A DNA stretch of 64,000 nt from Paenibacillus xylanexedens (lineage in GTDB: Bacteria > Bacillota > Bacilli > Paenibacillales > Paenibacillaceae). Both the position numbers and the translations under genes were made by a program. The DNA is taken from assembly GCF_001908275.1 (NCBI RefSeq), contig NZ_CP018620.1:620001-684000 (forward strand), given 5' to 3'. Every line of letters starts with the position of its first letter. Positions within the stretch are counted from its first letter, which is position 1. The notes beneath the pieces were generated by a model, which did no database searches, was not told the DNA's origin, and worked only from the letters and a program-made list of their open reading frames with translations. Positions 41,856 to 49,600 of the stretch are shown one piece after another.

Positions 41856-41963
41856 AACAACCCATTCCTCCTAAATTGTCTTGCGAGATATTCTATAAGT
41901 AAGATGCTTCATCGCATCGTTCGTTCCAACTGTATTATACCTATACTACACATTTCTCCAAAT

Positions 41964-42161
41964 TCTAACGAATCCCACACACCTTAATCAGCCCCATTTC
42001 GGCTACTTTAAAATCTAACGAATCTGAAACACGCTATCCCAGTCAAATCGAGCTTTCCCCACCACTTTCGAGGCCGTTTCTGTAATATAACGTGTCTACG
42101 ATTCGTTAGATTTCAACCAGGCGGTGTTTGCCTCAAATAAGGCGTCTCCGGTTCGTTATAG
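41964..42161. repeat. Nested inverted repeat, locus A (four half-units)
   Basis: Four related half-units of 22-27 bases built on CTAACGAAYCTGAGACACGC: two direct (41964-41986 and 42012-42037) and two inverted (42087-42113 and 42138-42161). Outer and inner pairs are each able to form a stem, and spacing within each side is about 50 bp. The same architecture recurs at 47815-48010. No coding capacity. Confidence 0.8.
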
Positions 42162-42415
42162 CTACTCGGCCCAACCAAACCTACATCCTTAACCACATTG
42201 CTGTCACCCAAATTTACTTTCCTCACGCCCCAGCAGCTTCCATTTCTACTTACCTACAACTTGCACCTTTACTACAACCTAGCTCACTCCCAACTCGGAA
42301 CTCGGCACCTACCTACCTTAATCTTCCCTTACCCTCGCCTACTCCCACGTTAACCCCTACGTCCCCACCCAGCTCCACGCTGCCTAACAATCACCACCAA
42401 TTGCCCACACAAAGA
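42162..42415. other. G-depleted intergenic stretch
   Basis: From 42181 to 42420 I count 19 G in 240 bases on the plus strand, with C and T dominant, so the minus-strand transcript would be poor in C. Open frames here are Pro/Ser/Thr-rich artefacts of composition without ribosome-binding sites. No known RNA motif recognised. Confidence 0.5.
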
Positions 42416-42439
42416 CAAAAAGAGCGCTCATCACGCTCT
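42416..42439 (-). terminator. Terminator after the CxxH/CxxC gene
   Basis: AGAGCG/CGCTCT stem with a seven-base loop, followed on the minus strand by TTTTTG, about 95 bp past the stop. Confidence 0.75.
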
Positions 42440-42534
42440 CCTTGGCCTCTTGCTGTGATGTTCATACCGGATGGAAAGTCAGCCCGAAGCGCCACCTTAA
42501 GTCACGCCTCCAGCCGTCTAAGTCCTACAGTACG

Positions 42535-42702
42535 CTAAACGACGAGGAATTCCGCGTGCTGTTCGCACTCGGCGCACTTCGCAGGCGGGTCCCAGTCGGC
42601 AAATTCCGTCTCCTTCAAATCAACGATATCTGGAGCGTCCTCATACTCATCGACAAACATATCGATGGCAATGTCCACGTGTTCTTTGCATACAACGTAC
42701 AT
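42535..42702 (-). CDS. yyzF: CxxH/CxxC small protein (YyzF-like)
   Basis: A 55-residue protein read directly from the minus strand: ATG 42702, stop TAG 42537-42535. It begins MYVVCKEHVDIAIDMFVDEY and ends with CAECEQHAEFLVV. The paired motifs CKEH and CAEC define the CxxH/CxxC family of Bacillales, a probable single-zinc-site protein whose gene is normally found between htrA and rlmH, exactly its place here. AAAGGA precedes the ATG by about ten bases. Function unknown. Confidence 0.9.
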   Translation of the reverse strand: MYVVCKEHVDIAIDMFVDEYEDAPDIVDLKETEFADWDPPAKCAECEQHAEFLVV

Positions 42703-42875
42703 CCGTTAAGCATCCTTTCTGTAACCAGCTATGTTCCCGATTCACAACCGCTTATCCCATTACAGGATAGCCACTTCTCAGTTCTATCACACCTGCCGCC
42801 GAAAAGAAACCCCCAGCCCTAATTTATCGTGCCCAACCTCCACCAAACCTCTCCATTCACCGTAAAAGAACACAA

Positions 42876-42919
42876 AAGCATCCTTCCCGATACCTCTACG
42901 GTACTACGAAAAGAATGCT
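42876..42919 (-). terminator. Terminator of the lipoprotein gene
   Basis: About 13 pairs, including wobbles, starting AGCATTCTT with partner AAGGATGCT, followed by TTTTG on the minus strand, about 125 bp after the stop. The rest of the gap 42703-43043 is C-rich and holds no gene. Confidence 0.7.
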
Positions 42920-43043
42920 CTTATAACATTAACAATCACTTCACATAGCGAATGAATCTTGCTCCTGCCCCTGAATTACGAATACAGAGTTACTTATTGC
43001 CCTGTTCCATTCCAATCTATGAATTGTTTCTATCCCGAACTCT

Positions 43044-43568
43044 TTACTTCAACCCCGACTGCGCCTTCGTCAACAGCTTCCCACCTTGAAAAGCAATAAC
43101 AGCATTGGCACCATTGCCAGCAGTGCCTTTATAGTTGTACACCACCATATTCTCCGCTTCACTCAGCGCTTCACCTTCGCCTCCGAGGATCTCGATGACA
43201 TCTCCCACCGACATGCCAACCTCAAGCTTCTCATACTGGGCAAAGGTAATCAGCACCCCATCGCCTTTCCCAGCCGATCCGTTGTTTCCCGATGTTACAG
43301 GCGTTTGACCACCAGCCTCACCCACCGCAATCACATTTGTACTCAGTTCATTCAACTTGGTCTCCAGTGCTGCGATTTTTTGCTCCTGCTCAACGCTCTT
43401 GGCTCCCTGCTCCACCAGTTTCTTCTCAAGCCCTGCAATCTTCTCTTGCAGAGCACTTGTATCTACAGATGCTCCTGTCGTAGCTACCTCAGATCCACAG
43501 GCCGACAGCACAAACAGTGACAGCGCCAAGCTCGTTCCCCCAAGCATCTTTTTCTTCAAATGTTTCAT
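43044..43568 (-). CDS. Lipoprotein with coiled coil and BamE/SmpA-like domain
   Basis: A 174-residue lipoprotein. Signal peptide with lipobox LSAC (Cys near 24) is followed by a coiled coil (TSALQEKIAGLEKKLVEQG, EQEQKIAALETKLNEL), a Gly/Ser linker, and a C-terminal domain of about 65 residues (YEKLEVGMSVGDVIEILGGEGE, AVIAFQGGKLLTKAQ) like SmpA/OmlA or BLIP-type folds. ATG 43568 follows AAGGGG. It probably sits on the outer face of the membrane; binding partners unknown. It lies between htrA and the yyzF-like gene. Confidence 0.83.
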   Translation of the reverse strand: MKHLKKKMLGGTSLALSLFVLSACGSEVATTGASVDTSALQEKIAGLEKKLVEQGAKSVEQEQKIAALETKLNELSTNVIAVGEAGGQTPVTSGNNGSAGKGDGVLITFAQYEKLEVGMSVGDVIEILGGEGEALSEAENMVVYNYKGTAGNGANAVIAFQGGKLLTKAQSGLK

Positions 43569-43869
43569 TAGAAATACCCCTTCCATTCTGAAATAAAATC
43601 AGATCGACAAACAGATGTTATTGCATCAGCGACCGTCTCCAACATATTGACAACAGTTTACCACAGCACAAGTCTTATGTATCTGCTCCTTTGGCTCCGG
43701 GTCTAACTGATCATGGGAAGATGTAAATGGTTAATCTACTCATTTACTGTCGAACGAACACGTCCAATCCCTATTACAGCCAGTGTTATTTCGATGTCCT
43801 GACTTATGTAATTACAATCTAGCTCACCCCTTACAACCAAGCATTGCGTAATGCTCATCATCCAACAAC

Positions 43870-43903
43870 TAAAAAAGAGTGGTCAGTTGATCTGATCACT
43901 CTT
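43870..43903 (-). terminator. Terminator of the htrA-like gene
   Basis: AAGAGTGGTCAG pairs with CTGATCACTCTT (one wobble); T run TTTTTTAG on the minus strand. The rest of the gap 43569-43958 shows no gene. Confidence 0.9.
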
Positions 43904-43958
43904 CTAGCATTCCCTATTTCAATCCACGCAACAGTATGGGCTCGCTCGTTGATCTCCC

Positions 43959-45236
43959 CTACTCCGGTTTATCCGTCAGCTTCACCGATACTTTCTCCAC
44001 TTTGCCATCCCGGTAGAAGGTCACTTCAATCGTATCCCCAATCTTCTTCTCATCGTACAGATATTTCCGTAGATCCAGCGTGGAGGTAATTTTTTGCCCG
44101 TCAAATTCCGTAATGACATCATTCAGCTTCATGCCGGCTTCGGATGCTGGACCAGATGCTTCCAGCACAACCACACCGCTGTCCACATGAGATGGCAGCT
44201 TCAGATCCTTACGCTGCTCGTCATCCAGTGGTGCATAAGGGTTGCTCAGATCCACCGTGTACACGCCAAGATATGGACGAGATACTTTACCGTTCAGTAA
44301 CAGAGAATCGACCGTTTTCATCACTTCGTTCATCGGAATCGCAAAGCCAAGACCTTCAACGCCGGTATCCGAGATCTTCATCGTGTTGATGCCGACCACT
44401 TTGCCGTTCAGATCGACGAGTGCACCGCCGCTATTACCTTCATTAATCGCCGCATCCGTCTGGATCACGTTTTGCTCCCAGTCGTACACCCCGTCCTGAT
44501 TAATCGATACCGGTAGAATACGATCCGTGTAACTGACAATACCGGATGTAAGCGTACCACCCAGACCGAGCGGATTTCCGATCGCCAGCACCGTTTGACC
44601 ACGCTGAAGCTTGCTGGAATCACCGATCTCCGCCACTGCACCCAGCCCTTTATCCTCTGCGGATAGTACAGCAATGTCACTTACACGGTCTTTACCGACC
44701 AGCTTCGCTTTGTGTGTCTCCCCATCTACGGTCACAATCTCCAGATCACTCGCACCCTCCACAACGTGGTGGTTGGTCATAATATAAGCTTTGCCATCTT
44801 CCTTCTTGAAAATGACCCCTGAGCCCAGCGCCGAATCTTCCATCGATAGACTGCTACCCGTTTTATGGTTCACAATGCTCACCACGGAAGGACGAACGTG
44901 TGCTGCTGCCTGGATAATCCGGTCGTATGGATCAGCTGCCTGCGCTGTCTGTGCACCGCCTCCACCACCATTACCTGTAGCATTAGCCAGCGGTAACGAA
45001 GCGGGCTGTGTGATGAAGCTAAACAGCATGACGGTCACGATGGAGCTGATCACTGAGCTAATCACAGCTACCTTAACTGTGGAACTGATTCCCGTACGTG
45101 ATCTGCGCGGATTGCTCCAGCGGTCACGTCCACGTGCTCTGCCTCCAGGGCGGATGATCTGAAGTTTGCCTTTCTGTTCAGGTTCGGCGCGTCTTGATAC
45201 TTTGGTTGAATAAAAATCGTCTCCAAACAATCCCAT
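43959..45236 (-). CDS. HtrA/DegP-like membrane-anchored serine protease
   Basis: A 425-residue S1C protease. A basic cytoplasmic N-terminus is followed by one membrane helix (about 53-75), a trypsin-like domain with catalytic His 157 (TNHHVV), Asp 187 (VSDIAVL) and Ser 269 (EGNSGGALV), and one C-terminal PDZ domain (VLEASGPASEAGMKLNDVITEFDG). It degrades or refolds damaged proteins outside the membrane. It holds the same place as B. subtilis yycK/htrC at the end of the wal region. ATG 45236 follows AAGGGGAGAGG. Separate from walJ: a 725-bp gap and a plus-strand gene intervene. Confidence 0.93.
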   Translation of the reverse strand: MGLFGDDFYSTKVSRRAEPEQKGKLQIIRPGGRARGRDRWSNPRRSRTGISSTVKVAVISSVISSIVTVMLFSFITQPASLPLANATGNGGGGGAQTAQAADPYDRIIQAAAHVRPSVVSIVNHKTGSSLSMEDSALGSGVIFKKEDGKAYIMTNHHVVEGASDLEIVTVDGETHKAKLVGKDRVSDIAVLSAEDKGLGAVAEIGDSSKLQRGQTVLAIGNPLGLGGTLTSGIVSYTDRILPVSINQDGVYDWEQNVIQTDAAINEGNSGGALVDLNGKVVGINTMKISDTGVEGLGFAIPMNEVMKTVDSLLLNGKVSRPYLGVYTVDLSNPYAPLDDEQRKDLKLPSHVDSGVVVLEASGPASEAGMKLNDVITEFDGQKITSTLDLRKYLYDEKKIGDTIEVTFYRDGKVEKVSVKLTDKPE

Positions 45237-45994
45237 CGTGATCCTCTCCCCTTCGTTGTCACGCATCAAGACCCTGACTGCCGCCTAAGTTGTCGCATGG
45301 ATCAACGATGGTGTTCTTACGTTACCCCACTCCAGCCACAGCCGAGCTTTCGATCGCTGTTACTCACAAACTCCCATCCCACTTTCAGGGTGAAATTTGT
45401 TCATCGCGTATGCTCTCGAAGTAGCTTTCCTTCAGAAAGCTTTCCGGCGAACGCTACGCTTCTCCAGCTTCGTTCTGTGTCTTTCGTTACGTGCGTACCG
45501 TAAATAACCTCTCGTTTTCCCATGCTTTTTTGCAATTTTATAAAATGGTCTTGCATATCGCCGCATCCCGGCATCAAATCAAGATACAGCGTCTATGTAC
45601 AACAGAACGGACACGCCATTCTGTCAGTGACTCTATCAATCATGCTCTCGCATTCTATGACATGCCATTTCACACGCAAAACAGCCAAAATCACAATGCT
45701 CCTCATATACTAAACACGTCAAATCACAAAAAGTTGCATATTTACGAAAATTAAAGCAAATTTCCGCTATAACGCGCTTAACAATAAAGGTCCATAGTAT
45801 CTATCACCACAAAATCCGGTCCGCTAAGCGCCATTTTGGCAAATTTGAAGAACTTTTTCACCCCTGCATAGTCACAGGTTCAGCATACAGGTCTCATCAC
45901 ACAAATGTTAGCGGCAAAAAGAGGAATGTTTTCCATCAAGCCTGACTACAATAATAGTAAAAGACAATTCGAAGCTTCATAGAGGAGGATATAT
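45237..45994. other. 758-bp gap upstream of htrA with possible repeat remnant
   Basis: No gene with a credible ribosome-binding site was found. The stretch at about 45420-45500 (GAAAGCTTTC palindrome followed by GCGAACGCTACGCTTCTCC) resembles, by memory, an interspersed unit in other Paenibacillus genomes and loosely the internal part of the repeat at 449-614. Promoters of htrA and of the gene at 45995 should lie near the two ends. Confidence 0.35.
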
Positions 45995-46207
45995 ATGGAT
46001 CGCACACGTACACTCACAGCCATGGATGAAGTTCATATGGCGGCCAAGCTGGCCGATCTCAAGGAAGAGCACTATCGCAACACGCTTGCACTCAGTACCA
46101 TCATTGAACTACTTATCGATAAAGGCATTCTGACCCGTGAGGAAGTCGAGCGCAAAGCCGCCGAACTCGACAGCTTTATGGCTCACCCACCCTATCCCAT
46201 GGCGTAG
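45995..46207 (+). CDS. Small helical protein convergent with walJ
   Basis: A 70-residue, mostly helical cytoplasmic protein (VHMAAKLADLKEEHYRNTLALSTIIELLIDKGILTREEVERKAAEL). The central pattern recalls the helical part of nitrile-hydratase-like small proteins, but no family can be named. A very good site GAGGAGG lies before the ATG. Its last 32 bases overlap the 3' end of walJ on the other strand, so transcripts of the two genes would be complementary at their ends. Confidence 0.78.
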   Translation: MDRTRTLTAMDEVHMAAKLADLKEEHYRNTLALSTIIELLIDKGILTREEVERKAAELDSFMAHPPYPMA

Positions 46208-46982
46208 GACGGTCGTAATACGTATCACAGAGTTTGAACTCATGATCCCGATAAAAACATCCACGGCTCTCCATCGCGTCGCGCACCGACATTTTCGCCA
46301 AGTCCATCATATTATGATCTCGGCTAAGATGTGCCAGATACGTGCGCTTGATGCGTCCGTTCATCAGTTCACTAAGCGCTGCACCTGCCGCTTCGTTCGA
46401 CAGATGCCCAATGTCGCTCAAAATCCGGCGCTTGGTGTTCCATGGATAACGCCCCATACGCAGCAATTCGACATCATGATTCGCCTCCAGCACCAGCACG
46501 TCGGAATCAGAGATTGCATCGCGAACCTTGTCGCTCATGTACCCGAGATCCGTTGCAACAGACAGCTTCTCCGTACCATCATCGAATGTGTACCCTACCG
46601 GCTCAGCCGCATCATGCGAGATCCCGAAGGATTCCACGCGCAGTGACCCAAAATCATGCTTTTCACCCGTCTCAAATACCCTCCGGTTTTCCTCTGGAAT
46701 CGCCCCAACCGACTTCTCCAGTGCCGCCCACGTATTCAGATTCGCGTAGATTGGTAAATTATATTTCCGAGACATCGCGCCTAGTCCTTTAATGTGATCG
46801 GAATGTTCATGTGTAACCAGAATCCCGTCCAGTTCTGCCCCAGAAATCTCCCTTTCCTGAAACAGTGCATCCAATCGCTTCGCACTAAGACCCGCGTCAA
46901 TCATGAGAGAGGTACCCCCATGCTGTATGACTGTGGCATTACCTGTCGAACCGCTGGATAACACGGTAAAATATATCCCCAT
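46176..46982 (-). CDS. walJ: WalJ, metallo-beta-lactamase-fold hydrolase
   Basis: A 268-residue MBL-fold protein. FTVLSSGSTGNATVI, the metal motif THEHSDHIKG, SHDAAEPVGYTF, VATDLGYMS, EANHDVELLRMGRYPW and LAHLSRDHN are characteristic of WalJ (YycJ). It is thought to be a nuclease or hydrolase that links the wal operon to DNA replication and cell division. It follows walI by six bases. Its 3' end overlaps a convergent small gene. Confidence 0.95.
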   Translation of the reverse strand: MGIYFTVLSSGSTGNATVIQHGGTSLMIDAGLSAKRLDALFQEREISGAELDGILVTHEHSDHIKGLGAMSRKYNLPIYANLNTWAALEKSVGAIPEENRRVFETGEKHDFGSLRVESFGISHDAAEPVGYTFDDGTEKLSVATDLGYMSDKVRDAISDSDVLVLEANHDVELLRMGRYPWNTKRRILSDIGHLSNEAAGAALSELMNGRIKRTYLAHLSRDHNMMDLAKMSVRDAMESRGCFYRDHEFKLCDTYYDRPTPWDRVGEP

Positions 46983-46988
46983 AACGCA

Positions 46989-47732
46989 TTACTCCCCTGG
47001 TTTGTCTGTCTTGGGACTGAATACATCCCCACTGATGCCCTGCACATACAACACTTCGCCACTTTCCAGCACGAACCGCCATGCCGGCATCGCTACCTGT
47101 ATATCTGAATTGAACAACTGGCCGTAATAGCCCAGCTGAATATCTTTGACAATTGCATCATTTGGCAAAAAGTTCTCGATCAGCGTTCCCAGCGCCTTCG
47201 ACGCCGGAAGCACCTGCTGATCGCTCTCCTCTGCGGTTGTAATCCGCACTGGAGTTTGACGGTAACCCGTTATTTTCTGGTCGCTGTAGAATAGCTCCAG
47301 ACTCACATTGAAGAGCGGCCATTTGCCATCCACCAGTGGGTGAAGCACAAAAGCCCCATCCTCGGCCATCAGTTGATCCAGCCGGTATGTCCCGATCTGT
47401 GGAATCTCACGCTCTAATGCATCTTCCAGCTCACTCTGCGAGAAGATCAATTTGCTATCTACAGGCTGTTCCAGTTCCATATCCACGCCAGCCTTGTCCT
47501 CTTCAATGAACTCATAGGACAACTTCGGTAGCTTCGGCGTTTCATTCGGAATCGGAGCCAGCACCTGAATGCCCTTCTCTTCCATCGCCTGCTGTGTATT
47601 ATCTGCCAGTGAGGTGAAGTCCAGATTGGCTCCGGCCGTCTCCCGCGCATCCATCCAGATCTGGTATCCCAGCACCAGATTGAGCAGCAGAAAGGCATAG
47701 ATCAACACATTTTTCGCCCGTCCCCAATCCAA
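46989..47732 (-). CDS. walI: WalI, regulator of WalK
   Basis: A 247-residue membrane-anchored protein: one N-terminal helix (VLIYAFLLLNLVLGYQIW) and an outside YycI domain (LSYEFIEEDK, VDGKWPLFNVSLELFYSDQKITGYRQ, AWRFVLESGEVLYVQG). With WalH it holds WalK in check through the membrane. The start is TTG 47732, eight bases after GGAGG, giving MDWGRAKNV, which fits the MDWNKTK-type start of B. subtilis WalI; the GTG three codons earlier lies inside the site. It is cut off from walH by about 1.9 kb of inserted DNA, so it may need another promoter. Confidence 0.93.
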   Translation of the reverse strand: MDWGRAKNVLIYAFLLLNLVLGYQIWMDARETAGANLDFTSLADNTQQAMEEKGIQVLAPIPNETPKLPKLSYEFIEEDKAGVDMELEQPVDSKLIFSQSELEDALEREIPQIGTYRLDQLMAEDGAFVLHPLVDGKWPLFNVSLELFYSDQKITGYRQTPVRITTAEESDQQVLPASKALGTLIENFLPNDAIVKDIQLGYYGQLFNSDIQVAMPAWRFVLESGEVLYVQGISGDVFSPKTDKPGE

Positions 47733-47814
47733 AACGTTCACCTCCCTCAGTTAACTGGCTGAAATACTTTCAAACACTCTTGGAAAATTGATCTCTATCC
47801 ACGTTAGCCTGCTC

Positions 47815-48010
47815 GCTAACGAACTGCACACGCCTTATATGCTCCATTTTCCGCAAGTTTGTAATCTAACGAATCTGAGAGAAGTTATTTCAATCATTCA
47901 TAGGCATTCCATCGGTTTTCACTCGTTTTCTGCCGGAATAACGTCGCTGAGGTTCGTTAGATTTTGCGTTCTAGGCTAATTCGGCATTTAAAGCGTGTCA
48001 GATTCGTTGC
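47815..48010. repeat. Nested inverted repeat, locus B (four half-units)
   Basis: Half-units at 47815-47840 and 47863-47890 (direct) and 47938-47965 and 47988-48010 (inverted), all variants of CTAACGAAYCTGAGACACGC. Order and spacing match locus A at 41964. It stands between walI and the IS110 element inside the wal operon. Confidence 0.8.
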
Positions 48011-48309
48011 TATGAACGTTTTTGTCAAGCCCATCACAAAAAGCTGCTTTTCCCCGAAGCCCTAAGCGCGGGAGTCCATATGCGAGCGACGGTTGGCACG
48101 CTGCTATCCGTGGGTTGGTTACCACATGGTATGCCTTCGTCAAGGAGAGCTTTTACAAGCTAGCCACGCACGTTCAGCCCATTAAAAGCCTAGTGCAAAC
48201 GAACCTCGTACATTCTCTCCTGAACCTTCCATGAACTCCCGGGCCTAAGGCTCCGGAGTTTCCCCCTTTTTCCTTTTAAACCATCCGTCTCTTCAAGATG
48301 AATAACAGA

Positions 48310-49428
48310 TTACTGAGCGTTCGGTAGCTCCAACGTTCGGGCGACCGCCCAAATGAACCCGGTCAGTTCCCTGGCCACCGCGGTGACCGCGACATTTTTG
48401 TGTTTGTTTAATCCATAAACTAAACGGCGGAATTTTCGGTGCAGCCGTTCCTGAGCTTTCCAGGAAATGAGCTGTATGTCCGCAGGCAGACCTTCCAAAC
48501 GGCGGGCCAAGTCCCCTTTAATCGCAGGCCGATGGCGGTAACTCCATGCCGATTCAATCAAGGTGCGACGCAATCGTCCATTTCCCGCTTTGGTGAGCGA
48601 GCCTCGTTGGGTACGGACTCCAGACGAATGCTCACGCGGAACCAGGCCCAAGTAAGCCATGAGCTGAGCAGGGGAACGGAAACGGGCAAAGGAACCAATC
48701 TCCGCAGCAAGCGTGACGGCCGTGAGAAATCCAATGCCACGCAGAGACTGTAAAATTTGAATCAAATCGGCTTTAGAGCTGGTCGCCGCCTCTTCAATCA
48801 AGGCTTTTTCCAGTCGACCGATGCGTTGCTCGATCTCGTCCATGGCATGAAGGTACTCCGTAAACGCAATCTGCATAGGCGCATTCGGGAAGGTCAGTTG
48901 TCCAAGCCATACGCGATATTTTTTCGTCCAGCGACGTTTGATTTGTTCAGGCGGATGGATCTGGTGACGCAATAAAAATTTGAGCACGCGTTGACGAGCC
49001 CGGTGAGCATCTTCTTTTGCCGATTCGCGTGCCCGAACCAATTCACGAAGCGCCTCATCTTCACGTGCTGGAACGTAAATCGGCGTAAGCTCGCCTGCAC
49101 GGAACAGACGTGCCAGTTGCTCGGCATCCCGTTGATCGGTTTTCACGTGATCGCCGGAGCGCTTGGGGATGAGTGAAGGGGCAATGACGACACAATGGGC
49201 CCCCATGGATTCGATCCAGCGGTAGGTTTCGTATCCTGTAGGACCGGCCTCATAACAAAACGAGAGGGAGCTTGCCGGACCCAATTCTTTGATGAGTTTG
49301 CGTAAGGCAGCAGGCGCATGAGCAATGGTGCCGTAATACCGCGGCTTGTCTTGACCCTCGTCAGCAATAGCAACAGAAATTTTTTCTTTGGATACATCTA
49401 AACCGATGAATTTTGTGGTAGACTTCAT
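48310..49428 (-). CDS. IS110-family transposase (DEDD recombinase)
   Basis: A 372-residue protein with both Pfam parts of the family. The N-terminal RuvC-like DEDD domain reads FIGLDVSKEKISVA (Asp 11), FCYEAGPTGYE (Glu 60) and KTDQRDAEQLARL (Asp 98, Asp 101). The C-terminal Transposase_20 domain has LRGIGFLTAVTLAAEIG, FRSPAQLMAYLGLVPREHSSG and GNGRLRRTLIESAW, including the likely catalytic Ser. The reading frame is intact, so the element could be active. AAAGGAGAG precedes the ATG. These recombinases are guided by a short RNA that pairs with donor and target DNA. Confidence 0.95.
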   Translation of the reverse strand: MKSTTKFIGLDVSKEKISVAIADEGQDKPRYYGTIAHAPAALRKLIKELGPASSLSFCYEAGPTGYETYRWIESMGAHCVVIAPSLIPKRSGDHVKTDQRDAEQLARLFRAGELTPIYVPAREDEALRELVRARESAKEDAHRARQRVLKFLLRHQIHPPEQIKRRWTKKYRVWLGQLTFPNAPMQIAFTEYLHAMDEIEQRIGRLEKALIEEAATSSKADLIQILQSLRGIGFLTAVTLAAEIGSFARFRSPAQLMAYLGLVPREHSSGVRTQRGSLTKAGNGRLRRTLIESAWSYRHRPAIKGDLARRLEGLPADIQLISWKAQERLHRKFRRLVYGLNKHKNVAVTAVARELTGFIWAVARTLELPNAQ

Positions 49429-49469
49429 AGGGATAGCTCTCCTTTGCTGTGTAGCTCTGAAATGGTGGT

Positions 49470-49600
49470 CTTCTTACTGTCCATTTTAACCTACGATGTG
49501 CAGCAATATGGAGGGCTATTTTTTTGTGGTTACGTTCATCATAGCTAGCCATTAGCCCGCTGCCCAAGGGAACCTATCATCCCACTTGGGCAGTTCACAT
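49470..49600 (-). ncRNA. Candidate IS110 bridge RNA
   Basis: On the minus strand, upstream of the transposase, three elements follow each other: a stem-loop CTGCCCAAG.../...CTTGGGCAG (49593-49560); a loop closed by GGGCTA/TAGCCC (49558-49513); and, directly adjacent, a loop closed by TCCAT/ATGGA (49512-49480). A 5' stem-loop followed by two large internal loops is the layout of known bridge RNAs (target and donor loops). The first loop contains ATGAACGT, complementary to ACGTTCAT just beyond the far end of the element (48012-48019). No promoter was assigned. The 299-bp region downstream of the transposase is an alternative place. Confidence 0.45.

Follow-up and report, generated by a model that had tools for sequence, protein, structure and literature searches.

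A dispersed four-unit DNA element of Paenibacillus chromosomes and a nuclease-like gene family as its likely partner

The repetitive extragenic palindromic (REP) sequences, including bacterial interspersed mosaic elements (BIMEs) and REP doublets forming hairpins (REPINs), are dispersed and species-specific, and they are linked to a gene that is flanked by cognate repeats. The product of this gene, the REP-associated tyrosine transposase (RAYT), is a tyrosine (Y1) transposase that acts on single-strand hairpins. The present work concerns a ~200-bp element that occurs twice, as elements A and B, in a stretch of 64,000 nucleotides of Paenibacillus xylanexedens (contig NZ_CP018620.1, positions 620,001 to 684,000; hereafter the window), together with a nuclease-like gene family that is likely the partner of such arrays. 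In the literature searched, the closest group is formed by the 52-nt constant-length tandem repeats, or satellites, of Bacillus and Paenibacillus, which are especially abundant in Paenibacillus (Subirana and Messeguer 2021, PMC8161180). The passages of that survey that matter here propose a protein requiring a constant repeat size and give consensus repeats with inverted motifs, e.g., TGTCCTTCAT..GATGAAaGACA (PMC8161180). An earlier satellite survey, in the portion relevant here, does not name Paenibacillus (PMC6749651).

The first-pass annotation of the window described two loci, each with four half-units in the order direct, direct, inverted, inverted (++--) at a spacing near 50 bp. All eight half-units were found at these places, the order is present at both loci, and the core spacing is the same at A and B (50/83/50; Table 1). 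The same annotation treated A and B as a special pair flanking the htrA-walJ segment, which they are not: they are two of ~64 dispersed copies in this 7.1-Mb chromosome. Each element consists of four pseudo-palindromic units in the ++-- order. The catalogue of the home genome contains 63 elements that have three or more units and one further element that is split by an IS3-type element. Among the 55 complete four-unit groups, the distances between unit starts are 50/77/50 in 42, 50/76/50 in 11, 50/79/50 in one, and 50/77/49 in one. Half-units scattered without the nested order, which were named in advance as evidence against a selected structure, are thus not what the genome holds, since 53 of the 55 complete groups are spaced at 50/76–77/50. 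The unit 11-mer TCTAACGAATC occurs 33 times in the home genome, compared with one occurrence of a reversed control pattern. A whole-element model that uses sequence alone (A1, R1), trained on 20 home copies with A and B among them, returned 138 rows on both strands of the home genome at E<=1, mostly at full length and with a best E of 1e-37.

The constraint on these elements is unevenly distributed. In 40 half-elements, the units are 67–76% shared and the linkers 34%. In the linkers and the centre, the columns of 126 half-elements alternate between A/T and G/C with little preference for A or T, and the base counts outside the units are 595:669 for A:T and 557:566 for G:C. The power of the 10.0-bp periodicity is 0.853 in the non-unit columns versus 0.0002 in the flanks, and the A/T fraction of the non-unit columns is 0.836 in phase and 0.314 out of phase. 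The unit spacing is fixed and near integer helical turns. A structured RNA or a cruciform, one of the possibilities raised at first pass, could in principle arise because the ++-- order might give a long hairpin, and transcription of related 52-nt satellites has been described in B. coagulans (PMC8625621). However, Rfam gave no match at the gathering score, and the RNAalifold consensus fold has 7 pairs, two of which show any double change. The would-be partners do not covary, as the likeness within an element is 0.607 versus 0.623 in permuted data for units 1 and 4 (z -1.5) and 0.736 versus 0.726 for units 2 and 3 (z 1.3). The biggest excess within elements is weak (z 2.2) and concerns units 3 and 4, which are not pairing partners. 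The linkers are constrained for A/T versus G/C and not for pairing, and we regard the RNA or cruciform explanation as very improbable. In contrast, the fixed spacing, the 10-bp phase, and the rarity of indels argue strongly for another of the suggestions made at first pass, a structure under selection such as an array to which a protein would bind. The signal fits bent, protein-wrapped duplex DNA and not RNA because the linkers are constrained in phase, the would-be pairs lack covariation, and the orthologues of A change their bases but hardly their length. It is probable, judging from sequence, that A and B represent a dispersed ~200-bp duplex-DNA element that would be recognized and wrapped by a protein multimer.

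Further candidates were considered. The linkers look unlike the acquired spacers of a guide array (CRISPR- or TIGR-like), given their 10-bp composition phase and their drift at 77–82% identity in orthologues. An attC site of an integron had been considered on the basis of a likeness to the RYYYAAC/GTTRRRY core site; it was dropped with the copies dispersed singly in a different layout, no search for an integrase having been made. TAACGG is a c-Myb site, and a Myb-like protein and an Lrp octamer were further ideas.

The orthologues of locus A provide a view of how one copy is maintained. A search for this region covered 75 genomes from the genus, and 30 loci, the home locus included, were fetched. 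At least three units are present in 24 of the 30, and these 24 form the alignment, from which six damaged, split, or absent loci were excluded. Gap cells amount to 0.7% in unit 1, 0 in linker 1 and in unit 2, 0.2% in the centre, 0.3% in unit 3, 0.3% in linker 2, and 2% in unit 4, compared with 27, 19, and 44% in the flanks. The identity is 0.89, 0.93, 0.93, and 0.80 in units 1 to 4, respectively, 0.73–0.82 in the linkers and the centre, 0.73 in the 5' flank, and 0.57–0.59 in the 3' flank. At locus A, base changes are tolerated and length changes hardly. Three loci lack the element (L140, L143, and L144), and a stump of unit 1 remains in each, so that these absences look like deletions.

The comparison of open reading frames (ORFs) flanking the elements revealed a single family common, at >=60% identity, to the home genome and a second genome (G024). 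In the home genome, this ORF of 220 aa lies between two elements that are 1.3 kb apart, and in G024, it lies beside a row of elements. Sequence searches of Pfam, NCBIfam, and the PDB gave no notable match to its product, while PADLOC and PHROGs gave weak C-terminal matches only. The database names of its homologues are mostly "transcriptional regulator" or hypothetical (among 120 of 969 listed). The protein (~220 aa) is predicted to combine a DUF559/Vsr-like nuclease fold with a winged helix. The candidate active-site residues E58, E60, D72, E86, and H93 are invariant in 74 homologues and also in 10 homologues that include two at 33–34% identity. At E<=1e-10, the protein is present in 184 of 246 genomes of the order. 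When these 246 genomes are taken as one set for the element and protein tallies, the sizes and labels of which agree, both are found in 165 genomes, the element only in 18, the protein only in 19, and neither in 44 (p=2e-19). At E<=1e-50, both are present in 118 genomes and the protein alone in none. Outside the home family, our own count over 228 genomes of the class, the negatives among which were listed only in part, gave both in 6, the element only in 3 (one of them weak), the protein only in 6, and neither in 213. The gene is broken in some genomes of the home genus, being cut short in G063 and carrying an in-frame stop in G020. Of the species lacking the protein, 6 of 10 have a disrupted locus A, compared with 2 of 11 of those that have the protein (p=0.06), too few for a claim; G063 was counted as lacking the protein, and 9 of the 30 loci were not scored for it. 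The co-distribution makes it likely that this nuclease-like gene family is the partner of the arrays.

The position of the arrays relative to the gene points in the same direction. In the 30 best loci, a full element detected by model R2, which was built from 45 named elements, overlaps the 3' end of the gene in 22 and lies within ~0.7 kb of the gene in 28. As for the remaining two, L351 has an element fragment, and the sequence of L364 stops at the gene. Sixteen of the 30 loci belong to the home genus, and the overlap is found in 11 of the 14 outside it. The last codons of the gene (LRT, stop) encode the unit core, TTACGAAC, and in two genomes with TAACGGA-type units, they give TTACGGAC or TTACGGAAC. 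Remoter homologues, mostly 24–41% identical to the home protein, have different arrays at the same 3' position (Table 1). At L378, the gene of a G024 paralogue is immediately followed by a satellite-like tandem series of ~ten copies, 40 bp each, of a near-perfect palindrome. In a motif-free test, at least four phased 9-mers formed a chain in 26 of 36 3' regions of further homologues, whereas the control windows gave such chains in 4 of 138 (p=9e-19); the spacing classes of this test were picked after the arrays had been seen, and palindromy was not required. Four of the 40 loci were excluded for short 3' ends, and L368 and L379 belong to the same locus. On visual inspection, 15 of the 26 long chains proved unit-like, the remainder being plain tandem repeats or uninspected; L398 and L403, which fall below the chain cut, also have a unit-like appearance. 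In some 3' regions of homologues, L371 and L404 among them, no array was found. The 9-mer test replaced an earlier palindrome-only chain test, in which 5 of 17 loci scored above all controls and arrays visible by eye were missed.

These observations allow a mechanism to be proposed. Dimers of the partner protein may sit on the four palindromic units along one helical face and would bend the phased DNA between the units into one compact particle of ~20 turns. The gene would retain its own array at its end, and the gene-array pair may act as a REP/RAYT-like partnership that seeds dispersed copies. Some dispersed copies may now be kept by the host, as at locus A, where they are in place, perhaps organizing the chromosome or insulating transcription at gene ends. 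Since the elements sit at gene ends, insulation between transcription units or anchoring of the chromosome may be their role. A broader and more tentative reading is a previously undescribed gene-array system of Bacilli, in which each DUF559/winged-helix protein would recognize its own phased palindromic 3' array and wrap it (~20 turns) into a sequence-positioned, nucleosome-like particle, the dispersed copies would be chromosomal sites, and the 52-nt satellites would be a tandem form. In the literature searched, no description of the element, the gene, or their link was found, although one could have been missed.

An alternative is that an unrelated architectural protein, such as a nucleoid protein, gyrase, or an Lrp-like protein, uses the elements and that the nuclease gene merely hitch-hikes beside one copy. 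The genomic setting bears on this possibility. According to a crude ORF caller, the 55 clean element gaps include 27 convergent ones and one divergent one, whereas 32 other gaps in the same loci include 7 convergent and 5 divergent ones, so that the element gaps are more often convergent (p=0.01). With the window gaps added, the controls comprise 8 convergent and 10 divergent gaps of 52 (p=0.0002 for convergent and 0.003 for divergent). By the same crude call, 9 of the 63 home elements overlap an ORF of at least 270 nt. The origin half of the chromosome contains 47 of the 63 elements (p=6e-5), the origin being placed near 0.705 Mb by sites resembling the parS consensus. Besides this enrichment and the convergent location, the wrapping signature and the genomes that keep elements without the gene would suit an unrelated protein. 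However, the enrichment near the origin is weak evidence and may only mirror the position of core genes, which are likewise origin-proximal. Moreover, different paralogues have, immediately 3' of their genes, arrays that differ in core, and element presence tracks the partner protein across orders. For these reasons, hitch-hiking by the gene appears quite improbable to us, and a partnership between gene and array is preferred.

The range of the elements and their spread are relevant to a further alternative. By model R2, elements are present in 183 of the 246 genomes of the order, representing 36 of 46 genera; for the class, the number of positive genomes is 30 of 250. In a pattern scan of named genomes, all of the at least 120 stretches listed are from Paenibacillaceae, with Paenibacillus, Cohnella, and Saccharibacillus among them. 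The unit cores are species-specific (TAACGAATC, TAACGGAC, TAACGGAAC, and TAACGAAAC). The distance from unit 1 to unit 3 is 116–117 in 63 and 126–128 in 31 of the 94 scored halves, i.e., those above the cut among 126 matched halves, so that clades differ in their central gap by about one turn of the helix. The genome G407, from another order, has an outer core of the GCGGAC type and retains the inner CGYTATTT. In G024 (main contig of 5,012,599 bases), all listed element places but one are at 0.41–2.89 Mb of 5.0 Mb, some in rows of two to four. In the 17 loci fetched from Cohnella xylanilytica, most pairs of copies are 82–92% identical (L230, L237, and L247 less), and the identity of some copies extends past the element. 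Because these copies are alike, the family can spread. Two copies in this species (L193 and L252) terminate in GGTTCGTCCCTCGTA at contig ends, as if a second multi-copy insertion also targeted the outer unit.

The first-pass annotation had also suggested a miniature inverted-repeat transposable element (MITE) with nested copies. The spread of the family agrees with this idea, and like MITEs, the elements are short and dispersed with inverted-repeat ends and no own ORF seen. Nested insertions are ruled out by the fixed unit spacing, the four units being one fixed module. In contrast to MITEs, no target duplication was demonstrated for the elements (no systematic test was made), their length is rigid, their orthologues are maintained, and the home copies diverge between units, with linkers that are as poorly shared as noted above; it is the Cohnella copies that are alike. 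The elements and the gene could instead form a purely selfish pair, in which the nuclease cuts and spreads the element by homing or in a REP/RAYT-like manner, the wrapped complex serves cleavage or transposition, and there is no benefit to the host. Such a pair would be consistent with the overlap of the gene with its array, the presence in one genome of several paralogues whose arrays have different cores, the spread in Cohnella xylanilytica, the patchy presence of elements, and their near absence from divergent gaps. It would also suit the presence of complete elements in two of seven viral contigs with the half-element pattern, namely L270 (8799-8989) and L275 (9537-9726), with E of 2e-21 and 2e-25. 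A phage origin was rejected, as no viral relative of the protein was found and the other pattern-bearing viral contigs hold no complete element. Functionless insertions would not be expected to give intact orthologues of A that stay in place with almost no indels while the flanks decay. In addition, neither a target duplication nor an empty insertion site has been demonstrated, and the three absences at A with their unit 1 stump look like deletions. A wholly selfish pair is, in our opinion, an unlikely account, compared with protein-wrapped elements of which some are kept by the host.

The comparison with described systems is as follows. The elements share with REP and RAYT a dispersed, palindromic, and species-specific repeat that is tied to a dedicated gene. 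They differ in that the gene product here is a predicted PD-(D/E)XK-like nuclease with a winged helix, and the DNA has a duplex signature, instead of a Y1 transposase acting on hairpins. The linked protein has no match to Y1 transposases in Pfam and a different predicted fold; the rest of the genome was not searched for Y1 genes. In the part of the satellite survey that concerns us, the 52-nt repeats share with the elements a fixed length near 50 bp, a variable species-specific sequence, several families per genome, and short conserved signals together with their reverse in one repeat (PMC8161180). The satellites differ as direct tandem arrays, i.e., at least four head-to-tail repeats of 51–53 nt, an arrangement not found in A, B, or the other complete home copies. 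The elements here have a ++-- four-unit module with a longer centre, are dispersed singly, show a 10-bp phase, and are linked to a gene family; tandem 40–42-bp arrays are seen only behind some homologue genes. The inverted motifs of the published consensus repeats, as far as that text gives them, fit a kinship with the elements without proving identity. As for the EDxHD (Vsr-like) homing endonuclease I-Bth0305I (PMC3943268, in the part relevant here; PDB 3r3p), the predicted nuclease described here differs by its free-standing gene, its C-terminal winged helix, and the array at its 3' end, and the PDB search gave no match to it at the sequence level.

The units are also targets of other mobile DNA. 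Element B is located in the wal cluster, with yycI on one side and yycH on the other (Pfam), and its unit 4 is cut after 48008 by an insertion sequence, the DEDD and Transposase_20 domains and fixed insertion site of which are those of the IS110 family. In the home loci, eight of eight copies are inserted at the same unit base (..TCGTT/GCTATGAACG, with the slash at the insertion point) and share one orientation relative to the unit (the window, L114, L112, L033, L091, L051, L106, and L037); these copies were sampled in loci selected for elements and are not a whole-genome count. Three copies are 96.6–97.9% identical to that of the window over ~1.4 kb. We infer that the target loop of the IS110 bridge RNA should match TTCGTTAG. 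At L113 (G000 C1:1449461-1451024), an IS3-type element with ORFs of 105 and 287 aa, its family judged by eye, lies inside one of the four-unit elements, the centre of which is duplicated on the two sides of the insertion over 75 bp at 98.7% identity. The usual IS3 target duplication is far shorter than 75 bp.

Table 1. Features of elements A and B in the window and arrays 3' of remoter homologues (yyzF is the gene name used by the first-pass annotation)
Feature	Coordinates	Strand	Core start or unit type	Spacing (bp)	Basis or remark
Element A, complete four-unit ++-- array	41960..42164	.			between rlmH and yyzF; whole-element model, E=3.1e-32
A unit 1	41960..41987	+	41964		core/unit search
A unit 2	42010..42037	+	42014		core/unit search
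A unit 3	42087..42114	-	42097		core/unit search
A unit 4	42137..42164	-	42147		core/unit search
Element B, complete except last bases of unit 4 (removed by IS110)	47811..48008	.			whole-element model, E=4.1e-33
B unit 1	47811..47838	+	47815		core/unit search
B unit 2	47861..47888	+	47865		core/unit search
B unit 3	47938..47965	-	47948		core/unit search
B unit 4, interrupted after GATTCGTT	47988..48008	-	47998		core/unit search; IS110 comparison
IS110-family insertion sequence, 1538 bp	48009..49546	-			Pfam Transposase_20, DEDD_Tnp_IS110; boundaries from L114 copy
IS110 transposase ORF	48310-49428	-			Pfam
Array at L372			four TAACGG-N9-CCGTTA-type palindromes	51/62/51	3' of homologue
Array at L373			TAACGTAAT type	40/72/39	3' of homologue
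Array at L377			TAACTGC type	51/60/50	3' of homologue
Array at L378			at least 8 TAACGGCGCAAAAGGCCGTTA-like units	every 40	3' of homologue
Array at L397			four units	50/49/51	3' of homologue
Array at L400				38/74/39	3' of homologue

The proposed partnership would join published but unexplained repeats of constant length and variable sequence, which have so far lacked a known partner, to a concrete protein family. It also suggests a design rule for duplex DNA, with palindromic units on one helical face and a 10-bp composition phase between them. Many homologues adjoin a candidate binding array, so genome sequences could reveal their specificity. The pair may be a new kind of repeat-mobilizing system, provided that the nuclease is active. 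If the protein does wrap its arrays, bacteria would possess a wrapped particle that is positioned by sequence and whose specificity co-evolves.

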